Source: Clostridiales bacterium
GTDB taxonomy: Bacteria > Bacillota > Desulfotomaculia > Desulfotomaculales > VENG01
Assembly: GCA_016278505.1 (NCBI GenBank)
Contig: JADQBQ010000001.1
Span: 124,001 to 188,000 of the forward strand
Direction of reading: 5' to 3'
Length of the DNA stretch: 64,000 bases
A model generated the notes under the pieces. The model saw only the letters and a program-made list of their open reading frames with translations. It had not been told where the DNA came from and ran no database searches. Each line of letters begins with the position of its first letter. Position 1 is the stretch's first letter. Position numbers and translations under genes: made by a program. Positions 2,718 to 9,424 of the stretch are shown piece after piece.

Positions 2718-3686
2718 ATGAAAAAAGCAGTTGCAATGAAATTTTCTATGTTGACCGTACTGCTGTTTATAGCAACTCTAATCCCAGTAGGAACAGCCCA
2801 TGCTTATCTCTATGATTCGGGCACTTCGGCTAGTTCTGATTACTATTCCCAGTATTATGGGGACAGTAATGCAGGTGAGACTGTGAATACTAATCCGGAT
2901 TCCACAACCGATAATCAATCAGAGGCCGTTAATAACGAGTCCAATACCGGGACCTCTGGCAACACCTACTCGGACTATTATTCAAATCGTTCCGATTATT
3001 ACTCACGTTATTATGACAACAGCACAAGCAATCCTGACCCTTCAGGCGATACAGGGAATAACGACACTACTGACCCTACAGACGAGACAGGGAATAGTGA
3101 TTCCGGCACAACAACACCAAGTCAGCCGGATTCCAATACTGGCAATTCAGATAGTTACTCAAACTATTATGATCGCAGCAGCTGGTATGACCGTTATTAC
3201 AATAACAATAATTCCGGCACAACCACACCCGGTAACGGGTCAGACAATACCCCTGCCCCCTCAACTCCTGGCGAGACAAATGACCCCGGAGATGTAGGAT
3301 CCCTTACTGCGAATGAAAAATTAATGCTTGACCTGGTTAACCAGGAAAGGGAACAAGCAGGACTGAACACTTTTAGCGTTAACTCCGAACTGGTTAGGCT
3401 GGCTCGCATGAAAAGCCAGGATATGTACGAAAACAATTACTTCAGCCATACATCACCCACTTATGGCACAGCTTATGACATGGAAAAAGACGCCGGTTTT
3501 AATGCCAGGGTAATGGGTGCGGAAAACATTGCTAAAGCAGCAACTGTAAGTAGGGCACACACACTTTTCATGAACAGTGACGGCCACCGTGCAAATATAA
3601 TGGACTCCAGGCACGACATGATCGGCATTGGGATCGTTAACACCCCTAACGGTGTATATGTAACCCAATTATTTGCAGGGAACTAA
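2718..3686 (+). CDS. Secreted CAP/SCP-domain protein with low-complexity Tyr/Ser/Asn/Thr linker
   Basis: Signal peptide, repeated DYYSxYY/YSxYYxRS motifs, C-terminal CAP domain (LMLDLVNQEREQAGL...YFSHTSPTYGTAYDM...GAENIA...GHRANIMDSRHDMIGIGI); RBS AAAAGGAGG. Confidence 0.9.
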   Translation: MKKAVAMKFSMLTVLLFIATLIPVGTAHAYLYDSGTSASSDYYSQYYGDSNAGETVNTNPDSTTDNQSEAVNNESNTGTSGNTYSDYYSNRSDYYSRYYDNSTSNPDPSGDTGNNDTTDPTDETGNSDSGTTTPSQPDSNTGNSDSYSNYYDRSSWYDRYYNNNNSGTTTPGNGSDNTPAPSTPGETNDPGDVGSLTANEKLMLDLVNQEREQAGLNTFSVNSELVRLARMKSQDMYENNYFSHTSPTYGTAYDMEKDAGFNARVMGAENIAKAATVSRAHTLFMNSDGHRANIMDSRHDMIGIGIVNTPNGVYVTQLFAGN

Positions 3687-3742: not shown

Positions 3743-3772
3743 AAGAGATGGACATTTTTATGTCCATCTCTT
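3743..3772. terminator. Hairpin between convergent ORFs
   Basis: AAGAGATGGACAT...ATGTCCATCTCTT perfect inverted repeat. Confidence 0.7.
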
Positions 3773-3965
3773 ATTTTGTTACAAAGCGCCTGAAACAAAA
3801 AACACCCGGCTTGACTTCAATAAACTGCCTCTTTAATGAGTTATTCAGTTGTACTTTAGTAGTATACTCCAGACTCCTATTCCTTCTGGTTTTACAAGCC
3901 TTACCTGAACCTTTTCGTAATTTAACACAGTACACCCCCTCATAAGGACTCCAACGCCACAACAT
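3771..3965 (-). CDS. Short protein sharing the QRQF-x2-VK-x-G-x-FCF motif with the 4810..5223 product
   Basis: LNNSLKRQFIEVKPGVFCF here versus LSNAVQRQFKQVKEGIFCF in the second locus; same position and orientation relative to a Cys-rich gene. Confidence 0.45.
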   Translation of the reverse strand: MLWRWSPYEGVYCVKLRKGSGKACKTRRNRSLEYTTKVQLNNSLKRQFIEVKPGVFCFRRFVTK

Positions 3966-4115
3966 ACGGTTTTCACCACCTTAAGCATTTCTCCAACCCC
4001 AAAGTTCTACAAAAAACTTATGGTTATTCTTGTCTTTTTGTAACACATCAGCCTCAATAACCATATTATGGATTATGCAAAGCCCAATTATATAATTCTC
4101 AAGGAGGTATTTTAA

Positions 4116-4730
4116 ATGGCTGATGATGTTAGCGTCCAGCAGCTTGACCAAATGGAAGTAGTATGTATTGAAACTTTTAAAGTCTACGATTTTTGCTTCC
4201 AAAGTGAACGCAGGGAGAATAATTGCTTCCCCTTGGAGGACTTTAGAGTAAACGCATCTACTTGCCCAATTGAGCCCGACGAAATTGTGTCTTCTACGTG
4301 CGAAATCACAAATGCAAGTTGTTCTGAAATGGCTCGCTCTGAGCCGGATGAAGATGGAAGGGCACAAGTGACCCTCGGCATCACCATCAACGCAACAGCT
4401 ACCATTGCCGATGCAGAAGGTAACACCTGCTTCCAAGAAGAAGAATTTGCTTTCACCAAAACTGTAGTCCTTTGCGCTCCGGTCGGAACTCAAATTAACT
4501 GCTTTATACCCAGTTTTTCTTGCGGCCCCTGTATGCTTATGGGCACCCAGGTTTGCTGCACATTCGATCTTTGCATCGTAATACAGTCCCTGGCCCTGGT
4601 TAAGCTACTGGTACCCAGTTTCGGCTTTTGCACTCCCACGGTTTGTGAGCAAGTATCACCCGGACCTCCCTTTGTATGCCCACCGGAACTCTTCCCGCCG
4701 CAGTGTCCAAATAATGGTAACAACGGTTAA
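4116..4730 (+). CDS. Cys-rich protein, copy 1 (204 aa), function unknown
   Basis: RBS AAGGAGG; 18 Cys; near full-length similarity to 5423..6043. Confidence 0.85.
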   Translation: MADDVSVQQLDQMEVVCIETFKVYDFCFQSERRENNCFPLEDFRVNASTCPIEPDEIVSSTCEITNASCSEMARSEPDEDGRAQVTLGITINATATIADAEGNTCFQEEEFAFTKTVVLCAPVGTQINCFIPSFSCGPCMLMGTQVCCTFDLCIVIQSLALVKLLVPSFGFCTPTVCEQVSPGPPFVCPPELFPPQCPNNGNNG

Positions 4731-4742
4731 CCTGAACTTCAT

Positions 4743-4802
4743 AGTGACAGGGGCAGAAATACTTCTGCCCCTGTCACTTCTGCCGGTGCCCCACCGGCAG
4801 TT
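4743..4802 (+). terminator. Two tandem hairpins after Cys-rich gene copy 1
   Basis: AGTGACAGGGGCAGAAATACTTCTGCCCCTGTCACT followed by CTGCCGGTGCCCCACCGGCAG then TTTGTTTTTT. Confidence 0.75.
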
Positions 4803-4809
4803 TGTTTTT

Positions 4810-5223
4810 TCACGTAAAAGCATAGACTTTCATACCGTCTTTAGTTGTTCCTGTGTCTTGGTAACCAGCGGATACAAATGGCATTCCCTCCGCGTCAATG
4901 GGGATTAAGCCCCACGATTTACTTACATTGGGCCTTTGATAATTTAAAGGATTCGCGTGAGGAGTTTTAAAACAAAATATCCCTTCCTTAACTTGTTTAA
5001 ACTGCCGCTGAACAGCATTAGATAACTTTTTAGCTACATCATTGCAATCCTTATCCACAAAGGAATCTACCTCATCCTTACTGTAGCCACAATTTTCATT
5101 GCTCGCATCCGTCGACGGACTTTGCATATTTGTTTTTTTGCGACTGCTCCTCGCCTGCTTTTTAGGGTATAGTACCGGACCGTTACACGCTGTAAATTGC
5201 CGAAAAATCGTTTTTGACACCAA
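4810..5223 (-). CDS. Hypothetical protein (137 aa) with QRQF-x2-VK-x-G-x-FCF motif
   Basis: Open frame; motif shared with ORF 3771..3965; divergent from Cys-rich gene copy 2. Confidence 0.55.
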   Translation of the reverse strand: MVSKTIFRQFTACNGPVLYPKKQARSSRKKTNMQSPSTDASNENCGYSKDEVDSFVDKDCNDVAKKLSNAVQRQFKQVKEGIFCFKTPHANPLNYQRPNVSKSWGLIPIDAEGMPFVSAGYQDTGTTKDGMKVYAFT

Positions 5224-5422
5224 TTACCCCCCCCTCTTTAAGTGAGTAAGCTACAACGTATACCACTTTAATTATTCACTTCCTTCATAATACTAACTAT
5301 CATTGGTTTTTGTTAATAAAACGCAAACTTTTTCGCACATACTGACACACCTTTTTAAAATTCGGCATAAATTATTTCATATACAACCAAAAAGTGTAGC
5401 ATGAAGGAGGTTTTTTATTAAA

Positions 5423-6043
5423 ATGGCAGATAATGTTAGTGCGGAAGGACTAAAAAGGATGGAAATAGTTTGCATTGAAACTTTTAAAGTCTACGATTTT
5501 TGTTTCCAAAGTGAACGCAGGGAGAATAACTGCTTCCCTCTGGCAGGCTTTAGATCAGACTCTGCAAGCTGCAAGATTGAACCGGACGAAATTGTTTCTT
5601 CTACATGTGAAATCACGGGTGCAGGCTGTTCCGAAATTGGGCGCTCAGAACCTGATGAAGACGGGCGGGCCCAGGTAACCCTCGGTATTACTGTCACCGC
5701 GACGGCTACAATCACGGACGAAGCCGGCAACACCTGCACCCAAGCCGGAGAATTTGGCTTTACAAAGACGGTGGTCCTTTGCGCTCCCACCGGAACCCAA
5801 ATTAATTGCTTTATACCAAACTTCTCCTGCGGCCCCTGTATGCTCATGGGCACCCAGGTATGCTGTGCATTTGACCTTTGTATTGTAATACAGTCCCTTG
5901 CCCTGGTTAAACTACTGGTGCCCAGCTGTGGCTTCTGTACCCCCACTGTATGTGAGCAGGTATCGCCCGGTCCCCCGTTTGTATGTCCGCCGGAGCTATT
6001 CCCGCCACAGTGCCCGGATGATAAACGCAACTGCAACCGCTAA
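5423..6043 (+). CDS. Cys-rich protein, copy 2 (206 aa), function unknown
   Basis: RBS AAGGAGG; 20 Cys; long identical blocks with copy 1 (IETFKVYDFCFQSERRENNCFPL, SEPDEDGRAQVTLGIT, CGPCMLMGTQVCC). Confidence 0.85.
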   Translation: MADNVSAEGLKRMEIVCIETFKVYDFCFQSERRENNCFPLAGFRSDSASCKIEPDEIVSSTCEITGAGCSEIGRSEPDEDGRAQVTLGITVTATATITDEAGNTCTQAGEFGFTKTVVLCAPTGTQINCFIPNFSCGPCMLMGTQVCCAFDLCIVIQSLALVKLLVPSCGFCTPTVCEQVSPGPPFVCPPELFPPQCPDDKRNCNR

Positions 6044-6420: not shown

Positions 6421-6663
6421 TCAGCCCTTAATCCTTTTTTCGATTGAATTCAGTTGTTCCTTTAAAGACTTAAGTTGATCGGTTACATCATTGCTGTTAT
6501 TTGTTGACTGTGCACCCTGGTTATTCCACCGGCGACCCCGGCCTGAACGGCAGCCGAAAAAGCGATCAGTAAATCCCGGTTCGGAACTACCTGAACAAAA
6601 ACCGGCAGCGCGTCCTGTTTTAGGACCTTGCCCTAATGGTCCCCTGCGGTCTCCTCTTGCCAT
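6421..6663 (-). CDS. DUF5320-like protein
   Basis: MARGDRRGPLGQGPKTGRAAGFCSG N-terminus and coiled C-terminus LKSLKEQLNSIEKRIKG. Confidence 0.75.
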   Translation of the reverse strand: MARGDRRGPLGQGPKTGRAAGFCSGSSEPGFTDRFFGCRSGRGRRWNNQGAQSTNNSNDVTDQLKSLKEQLNSIEKRIKG

Positions 6664-7042
6664 ATAAATCACCCCCCTTATAAGGTCTGGCCTTTTGTGA
6701 TGCTTAAATAATCAATTGTGGTCATATGTTCATTATAACCTCCCTCTGTACCCATGTCAATTGTATTCCTGAATTCACCCTAGCTTAGAAAGTATAATCT
6801 TAGCTGAAAAAAGTCTATATATTTGCAAGAGGTCATAGCAACATGACACAAGAATATAGATATTACAATATTTATAATAAAAATATTTCTCCCCTAGCAG
6901 GAATTTTCTCTATATTAAAAGAATTGTGAAAATTAGTTCGAGCAATAAATACGAAAGGGGGGAAAAAGCCGCGCTATGACGCACACCCTGCAAGGTGTCT
7001 ACCTTTTAGAGTGATTTGCCCACTAAAAGGAGGAATGTTATT

Positions 7043-7540: not shown

Positions 7541-8326
7541 CTACTTTTTAACTTGCCGCTTCAGGAAGTATCCTTCAGCATCAATCTTATCCCGCAATAA
7601 TGTTAAATCTTCTTCTGTGGGTAATTTCATTTCCTTAACGTCCGAGGGAATAATTAATTCAAAACCTACCAGGTCTTGAATTTCTTCCGTTGTAACCCCC
7701 GGCATAACTTCCAGAAGCTTCATTCTCCTGGTTTCCTCGTCAAAACCAAACAGGGCCTGGTTAGTTATAACTCTGTAAGGACCGGAACCCATTACCCCTG
7801 CTTTATCCCTGTAATCCGGTGAACCGTCTCCATAGCCAATACTGGTCACAAAGTCTAACTGTTTTACAAATCTCCTTTTTTCCAGAGCCATAATAGCAAT
7901 TGTCTTTTCACAGTTGGCTGCCATAGCGCCTGCTCCACCACTGCCGGGGAAGCGAACCTGAGGTTGCCTGTAATCCTCACCCTGAATGGTTGAGCAGATA
8001 TTTCCATACATATCAATTTGAGCGCCACCGATAAAGGCAAAATCAGAGTAGCCTCTTTGTGTCAACTCAAAAACACCACAAAGTCCCTTCAGATAAGTAG
8101 CTTTACGAGCTGCCCTGGTATCCCCTACCGATAATGGCATACCCATTTCCAGCATCGGTGCCAATGAACCTGCCTCGTATATCATTAAAAGATTAGGAGC
8201 ATGTGTATACTGAGCATGCATCGCGGCAATAATTGGCAGGCCGGTTCCAACAAACACAATAGACTCGTCCTGCAAAACTCTGGAGCCAGTATAAGCAATC
8301 ATTTCCATTGGAGTAACTTCAGCCAT
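7541..8326 (-). CDS. CoA-transferase subunit B (glutaconate CoA-transferase-like)
   Basis: 261 aa; family-like motifs (IVFVGTGLP, GAQIDMYGNI, RFPGSGGAGAMA); adjacent to subunit A. Confidence 0.85.
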   Translation of the reverse strand: MAEVTPMEMIAYTGSRVLQDESIVFVGTGLPIIAAMHAQYTHAPNLLMIYEAGSLAPMLEMGMPLSVGDTRAARKATYLKGLCGVFELTQRGYSDFAFIGGAQIDMYGNICSTIQGEDYRQPQVRFPGSGGAGAMAANCEKTIAIMALEKRRFVKQLDFVTSIGYGDGSPDYRDKAGVMGSGPYRVITNQALFGFDEETRRMKLLEVMPGVTTEEIQDLVGFELIIPSDVKEMKLPTEEDLTLLRDKIDAEGYFLKRQVKK

Positions 8327-8365
8327 TTCGTTACCTCCTTAATAATCAAATTAGTCAATTAACCA

Positions 8366-9424
8366 CTAGTCTAAAATAATTGGTTGTCCGCCATCCATTT
8401 CTTTAACTTTCTTAAGGGTTTCACTATCAATTTTCTCGATAAATTCTTCATGATTGGCGCAACCAAAGATATACTCATCATAGTATTGCTTGAGCTTAGT
8501 CTTGTCCCCTGTCTTACGGAATTCTTCAGAAGCTGCCCTGAACATCTTAATATGATCCATATCGAACCAGTGGAAACCATAGCAAGCACCAGGATAGGCA
8601 CCATAAGGCACTTCTACCAGGGAATCTACAGCCGGGTGCGGAATTTCCGTCAGGTTCGGATAATTTCTTATATTCTCATCAGGAATAATCTTTTCCGCTG
8701 TAACAATGCTGTACGTACCGGCCATCGCTAATTCTGAGCAAGTACACTGTGCACCCATTAACCTGCTATTACCATACATATCAGCAGCGGTTACGTGTAT
8801 AAGGGAGACATCAGGATGGCAGGCCGGGACCAGGTAAACATTCCTGCCCGTATAAGGACATTCCATCATTGTACCTTTGTTAATCAGCTCCATATCCGCA
8901 CCACCATGGTCTCTTACCGGAATAAACGGAATACCCATGGCTGCGGCTTTGAAGCGAACAGACATGCCATAGTTTGTATAGTCATCAAGCTCAATCATAC
9001 CATTACTGGTCATATAGCGAAGAAGGGGAGCAATACCAATAATCTCATAGCCCCACCAGGCTAACTCTGCACGTTTGATAGAAACTCTGTCCGGATCTAA
9101 AATCATAGCGCCGGCCAAGAGCTCAGCGCAAATGGAGTTGGACTGCATGGATAAAGTCAAGTCCTTCACCCCGTGCCTTATCACTTCATGCACGGCAGCC
9201 ACAGGAACGCGAGTATTCACAAAACCACCGAGCCCGAGGTTCATTCCATCTTTGATATGCTTTTGAACAGCATCTTTCAGGGTTGTCCGCTTGTCCTTCA
9301 GCCCCTTAGGCTTGGAAACCATAATCTTGCGTGCTTCATCGGGTGTGGGTCCCCAAAATTCTAATGGTTTCTCGTCATACTTAACCTGGGAAATGTTTTT
9401 AATTGAAGAACCTATTTTTTTCAT
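8366..9424 (-). CDS. CoA-transferase subunit A (glutaconate CoA-transferase-like)
   Basis: 352 aa; GMNLGLGGFVNTRVPVAAVHEVIRHG; LIHVTAADMYGNSRL. Confidence 0.85.
   Translation of the reverse strand: MKKIGSSIKNISQVKYDEKPLEFWGPTPDEARKIMVSKPKGLKDKRTTLKDAVQKHIKDGMNLGLGGFVNTRVPVAAVHEVIRHGVKDLTLSMQSNSICAELLAGAMILDPDRVSIKRAELAWWGYEIIGIAPLLRYMTSNGMIELDDYTNYGMSVRFKAAAMGIPFIPVRDHGGADMELINKGTMMECPYTGRNVYLVPACHPDVSLIHVTAADMYGNSRLMGAQCTCSELAMAGTYSIVTAEKIIPDENIRNYPNLTEIPHPAVDSLVEVPYGAYPGACYGFHWFDMDHIKMFRAASEEFRKTGDKTKLKQYYDEYIFGCANHEEFIEKIDSETLKKVKEMDGGQPIILD

Follow-up and report, generated by a model that had tools for sequence, protein, structure and literature searches.

A BMQ_0737-like Cys-rich spore coat homologue in Desulfotomaculales is paired with a divergent, unnamed partner family with a possible role in spore-surface assembly

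Introduction

The closest described counterpart of the Cys-rich proteins analysed here is BMQ_0737 of Bacillus megaterium, which gives its name to a family of morphogenetic spore coat proteins (NCBIfam NF052457). Of the spore proteins of B. megaterium, BMQ_0737-GFP was one of the outermost (PMC4656864), and it is for B. megaterium BMQ_0737 only that location in the outermost layer and a requirement for the integrity of the spore layers are known (PMC4656864). Two further Cys-rich proteins, CsxA of C. sporogenes and CdeC of C. difficile, are reported to self-assemble at the outer spore surface (PMC7333573, PMC7677010); the likeness of our proteins to these exosporium proteins is an analogy of function, and no sequence relation is claimed.

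The locus described below lies in a 64,000-nucleotide stretch of the genome of a Clostridiales bacterium assigned to the Desulfotomaculales, hereafter the window. It encodes two Cys-rich proteins that resemble BMQ_0737 in aligning over the full length of the family, in a Cys pattern conserved among relatives, in the spore-former context and in a putative sigma-K-like promoter, and that differ from it in scores of 61-64 bits, below the family cut-off of 71, in the presence of a divergently transcribed partner gene and in tandem duplication. Of this locus, the coat protein is the half already known and the partner family the new one.

Results

Structure and duplication of the locus

The features of the locus are collected in Table 1. 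Both Cys-rich genes were found where a sequence-only reading of the same DNA had placed them and with the Cys counts given there, and their products have CGPCMLMGTQVCC in common; an RBS-like AAGGAGG directly precedes the first of them. The sequences read in the 64-aa and 137-aa minus-strand ORFs are KRQFIEVKPGVFCF and QRQFKQVKEGIFCF, respectively. That reading had also suggested a tandemly duplicated divergent unit with one partner shortened, and the duplication is borne out by the 82% identity of the two Cys-rich proteins, by a direct DNA repeat across their genes (77% identity over 300 nt, spacing 1307 nt) and by a weaker repeat shared by the minus-strand ORFs at a spacing of 1177 nt. As the two Cys-rich copies are sisters in the tree with 100/100 support, the divergent unit was duplicated within this lineage, and the tandem duplication is, as judged from sequence comparison, lineage-specific.

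Table 1. Positions of the genes and putative promoter sites of the locus within the window
Feature	Position	Strand	Description
Secreted CAP/YkwD-family protein	2718..3686	+	Tyr-rich linker
Shortened partner paralogue	3771..3965	-	64 aa
Sigma-K-like promoter, Cys-rich gene 1	4043..4070	+	AC-N15/17-CATATTATG
Cys-rich protein 1	4116..4730	+	204 aa, 18 Cys; BMQ_0737-like spore-coat homologue
Divergent partner gene	4810..5223	-	137 aa; TTG 5223 or GTG 5220 as start; complete C-terminal twin-hairpin module (predicted)
Sigma-A-like site, 137-aa partner	5287..5316	-	TTAACA-N18-TATTAT
Sigma-K-like promoter, Cys-rich gene 2	5347..5374	+	AC-N15/17-CATAAATTA
Cys-rich protein 2	5423..6043	+	206 aa, 20 Cys; second copy of the tandem duplication

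Tandem Cys-rich copies were also observed in other genomes (loci L125, L123 and L010/L056), with three copies in G037, two in G060 and three in G010; G037 and G060 each have a single partner gene, located 5' of the first Cys-rich copy. Within the window, the CAP gene is separated from the 64-aa ORF by a near-perfect inverted repeat, AAGAGATGGACATTTTTATGTCCATCTCTT (3744-3773), which lies just past the end of this ORF and is probably a bidirectional terminator common to both genes. Beyond the second unit, the minus strand encodes a small protein rich in Gly and Arg (6421-6672, MARGDRRGPLGQGPKTGRAAGFC...), which may be DUF5320-like, and carries two adjoining ORFs for putative CoA-transferase subunits (7541-9424).

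The Cys-rich proteins belong near the BMQ_0737 family

NF052457 is the sole NCBIfam match of the Cys-rich proteins and spans nearly their full length, residues 16-199 of protein 1 being aligned to positions 1-195 of the 199-position profile (E=1.2e-16, 61.4 bits), with a similar score for protein 2 (E=2.8e-17, 63.6 bits). Since both scores are under the curated cut-off of 71 bits, the proteins are called BMQ_0737-like homologues, or a branch of the family, and not equivalogs. No match was found in Pfam. The profile is matched by all 48 aligned Cys-rich members gathered from genomes, and 17 of the 20 Cys are kept in at least 31 of these; the whole-profile alignment and the conserved Cys pattern together establish homology, and on this sequence evidence the Cys-rich proteins are full-length homologues of the BMQ_0737 morphogenetic spore coat family. 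The sequence-only reading had been unable to assign a family to either gene of the pair, which no longer holds for the Cys-rich protein and still holds for the partner.

The AlphaFold model of Cys-rich protein 2 (mean pLDDT 85.7) is almost all-beta, with six long predicted strands. Among solved structures, no relative of the family was detected by sequence, and a fold search returned no close match (best E=0.023, top TM-scores of about 0.2 or lower). Several longer Cys-rich relatives (L011, L012, L013; G039, G458), with open frames of 320-648 aa, some of them C-terminally extended, were found without the partner family and probably represent a different branch.

The minus-strand ORFs form a family confined to the neighbourhood of the coat gene

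When the 137-aa protein was compared by tblastn with the neighbourhoods of relatives, the matches were divergent ORFs directly upstream of the Cys-rich gene. A profile search identified the partner family in 20 of the 113 genomes of the order, with E-values mostly below 1e-10; the search at the level of the class covered the same 113 genomes. In all 20 carrier genomes the partner is divergent from, and adjoins, a Cys-rich gene (E<=1e-68), and conservation of the minus-strand ORFs in relatives, which the sequence-only reading had proposed as a test of its own claim, is thereby evident. Cys-rich genes at this level occur in 21 genomes, 20 of which encode the partner, the exception being G022. 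No match to the family profile was found in the 92 genomes of the order that lack a high-scoring Cys-rich gene, and the family is absent from 398 further genomes sampled across the phylum, a few of them of the same order. Near the distant BMQ_0737-like genes no partner was found either.

A profile of the C-terminal module separates members (E<1e-15) from all other sequences (E>2). The 64-aa ORF was matched at 6e-5 by such a profile built without it, and it was recovered from the whole 3.9-Mb genome at E=5.4e-4 by a family profile that excluded it. As this match falls where the duplicated divergent unit predicts, the similarity between the 64-aa and 137-aa ORFs is not due to chance, and the former is a genuine, shortened member of the family, as had been supposed. 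That the minus-strand ORFs are instead spurious open frames sharing a motif by coincidence is an extremely improbable explanation: the low pairwise identity (~15-27%) and variable N-termini of the members would fit it, but position, strand and C-terminal motifs are constant in 20 genomes, the family-profile E-values are for the most part below 1e-10, and the remaining 93 genomes of the order and the 398 others across the phylum yielded no match. The minus-strand ORFs are, by these comparisons, a real family.

Searches of Pfam, NCBIfam and PHROGs gave no convincing match to the partner family; among 17 sequences only isolated single-member hits to Pfam or NCBIfam were obtained, and none to PHROGs. 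Assignment to a known regulator, a transposase or DivIVA was considered and rejected, the matches being isolated and weak, with the strongest stray one, to an IS6 transposase, reaching E=2.9e-4 in 1 of the 17 sequences. No paper on the Cys-rich/partner gene pair was found in the literature.

Partner proteins combine a variable chain with two conserved C-terminal motifs

Partner family members are ~140-240 aa long, as estimated from open frames, and consist, in order, of an N-terminus, a low-complexity stretch, the motif F-x2-V-x-PG-x-F-x-F, about 40 variable residues and a C-terminal DG-x-PVY-x-F. The N-termini vary, with MPWxWRPLxGxxW[VI] in one group and an aromatic KPYFYYRQ-like sequence in another. 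The 137-aa ORF carries both motifs, having EG in place of PG and KVY in place of PVY. Its first motif is at residues 72-85 and is followed by ~50 residues leading to the C-terminal DG-x-x-VY-x-F, and it lacks the MPWxWRPLxG-type N-terminus. The 64-aa ORF starts with MLWRWSPYEG, which resembles MPWxWRPLxG, and retains the first hairpin motif without DG-x-PVY-x-F. The earlier proposal that both minus-strand ORFs end in a shared motif was thus correct as to the motif; its location near the end applies to the 64-aa ORF only.

In the AlphaFold model of the 137-aa partner (mean pLDDT 61), hairpins are predicted at residues 75-85 and 121-136, with a short helix before the first and low confidence outside these elements; pLDDT is ~86-91 for residues 121-137 and 47-56 for most of the N-terminal half. 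The model thus depicts the partner as two C-terminal beta-hairpins behind a predicted disordered region.

Promoter-like sites suggest late mother-cell expression of the Cys-rich genes and possibly different timing for the partner

The sequence-only reading had called for a search for sigma-E and sigma-K promoters. Sequences upstream of 25 Cys-rich genes (23 from 20 related genomes and two from the window) were compared with expectations from dinucleotide shuffles. The motif AC-N15-17-CATA, in agreement with the known sigma-K consensus, is present in 25/25 regions, a figure that overstates independence given their shared descent, against 3.0 expected (shuffle maximum 8), and lies mostly 45-76 nt from the Cys-rich start; the strict form CATAnnnT[AG] is present in 21/25 vs 0.5 expected. 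As internal controls, the upstream regions of the partner and CAP genes contained a sigma-K-like site in 3/19 and 4/20 cases. A sigma-E promoter was rejected for the Cys-rich genes (0/25). Of the 20 partner-bearing genomes, 18 encode SpoIVA, that of the window among them, and the two in which it is missing are incomplete (72% and 81% complete). The sigma-K-type sites support late mother-cell, spore-coat expression of the Cys-rich genes as a prediction, and together with the NF052457 homology and the SpoIVA-encoding genomes they lend weight to the initial guess, made from Cys content and the secreted CAP neighbour, of a role in the spore coat or an extracellular layer.

Upstream of the partner in several relatives of one group, a sigma-A-like TTAACAAAA...TATwAT with 18-bp spacing was found. 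As the partner lacks a sigma-K-like promoter and, in this group, has a sigma-A-like one, it may differ from the Cys-rich gene in timing or compartment, and different timing is what we predict. A divergent gene with a sigma-A-like promoter beside a single target could encode a regulator of the Cys-rich gene, an interpretation with which strict divergent adjacency and co-occurrence, a promoter type unlike that of the target and the basic character of several members would all agree. We nevertheless regard it as quite unlikely: no DNA-binding domain was detected in the partner by Pfam or NCBIfam, the conserved portion consists of two aromatic C-terminal beta-hairpins (as predicted), and members differ in net charge (-5.9 to +17), which speaks against a DNA-binding family.

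The CAP gene is a frequent neighbour of the pair

The gene upstream of the first unit encodes a protein with a CAP domain (Pfam CAP, E=1.2e-16), in which it resembles the YkwD/CAP family TIGR02909 (E=2.4e-40), although its 137 bits are below the cut-off of 171 and it has no convincing sigma-K-like promoter. A sigma-K promoter for the CAP gene was rejected for want of convincing enrichment across relatives, with the loose form in 4/20 regions (1.7 expected) and the strict form in 3/20 (0.2 expected, shuffles reached 3). The linker of the protein is of low complexity, with DYYSxYY repeats and 7.5% Tyr. The association of the pair with a secreted CAP protein, first seen in the window, recurs among relatives: a CAP/YkwD gene adjoins the pair, co-directional with the Cys-rich gene, in 17 of the 19 partner-bearing relatives, one of the other two lying on a contig that is too short for a judgement. 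Its position varies, being upstream in f17/f18 and downstream or on both sides in f8. According to the ORF sequences, a CAP gene also lies beside some of the distant Cys-rich genes without a partner, and the CAP link may therefore predate the partner.

Such a neighbourhood, together with the low-complexity chain and the variable length and charge of the partner, which recall many coat proteins, would suit an independent structural component of the coat whose linkage to the Cys-rich gene reflects a spore-surface gene cluster that includes the CAP gene. This alternative is unlikely in our judgement, considering that adjacency to the Cys-rich gene is invariant in the 20 genomes whereas the position of the CAP gene varies, and that the partner lacks a sigma-K-like promoter of its own.

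Discussion

The position of the partner in relatives, always back-to-back with the Cys-rich gene, suggests that it probably assists in the construction of the spore surface, and on balance we favour the reading of the locus as a spore-surface structural protein with a small dedicated partner for its assembly or attachment. According to this scheme, late transcription from sigma-K-type promoters in the mother cell would supply the Cys-rich proteins, which would then form a disulfide-stabilised assembly on the outer coat or on a layer resembling an exosporium, a location and mode of assembly that we infer from BMQ_0737 homology, Cys conservation and the all-beta model. The divergent partner would act on the Cys-rich protein itself, with the predicted hairpins formed by F-x2-V-x-PG-x-F-x-F and DG-x-PVY-x-F docking to its beta-sheets, and would either escort it until the spore is reached or tether it there; the linkage is observed, and from it alone come the putative contact and the role as escort or tether. 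After the tandem duplication, one partner copy would have lost the second hairpin. Against this reading stand the fact that G022, which has a good Cys-rich gene, and the distant BMQ_0737-like genes manage without a partner, the lack of a sigma-K-like promoter in front of the partner, and the NF052457 scores under the curated cut-off.

In a bolder version, which we consider somewhat unlikely, the partner would be the first recognised representative of a new type of spore-surface assembly factor. It would be a disordered chain with twin C-terminal hairpins, expressed from a promoter of the housekeeping type, and would escort or cap a coat protein that is crosslinked through disulfides and produced later, under control of sigma-K.

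Through the Cys-rich half of the locus, a little-studied coat family described in B. megaterium is extended to the Desulfotomaculales, an order of sulfate-reducing and syntrophic bacteria. For the unnamed partner family, a coat gene is the only context detected, in 20 of 20 genomes, which amounts to a strong functional link. Little is understood of how Cys-rich coat proteins are prevented from crosslinking too early, on their way to the spore, and a dedicated partner, if its role is confirmed, would offer a handle on how this crosslinking is held back.
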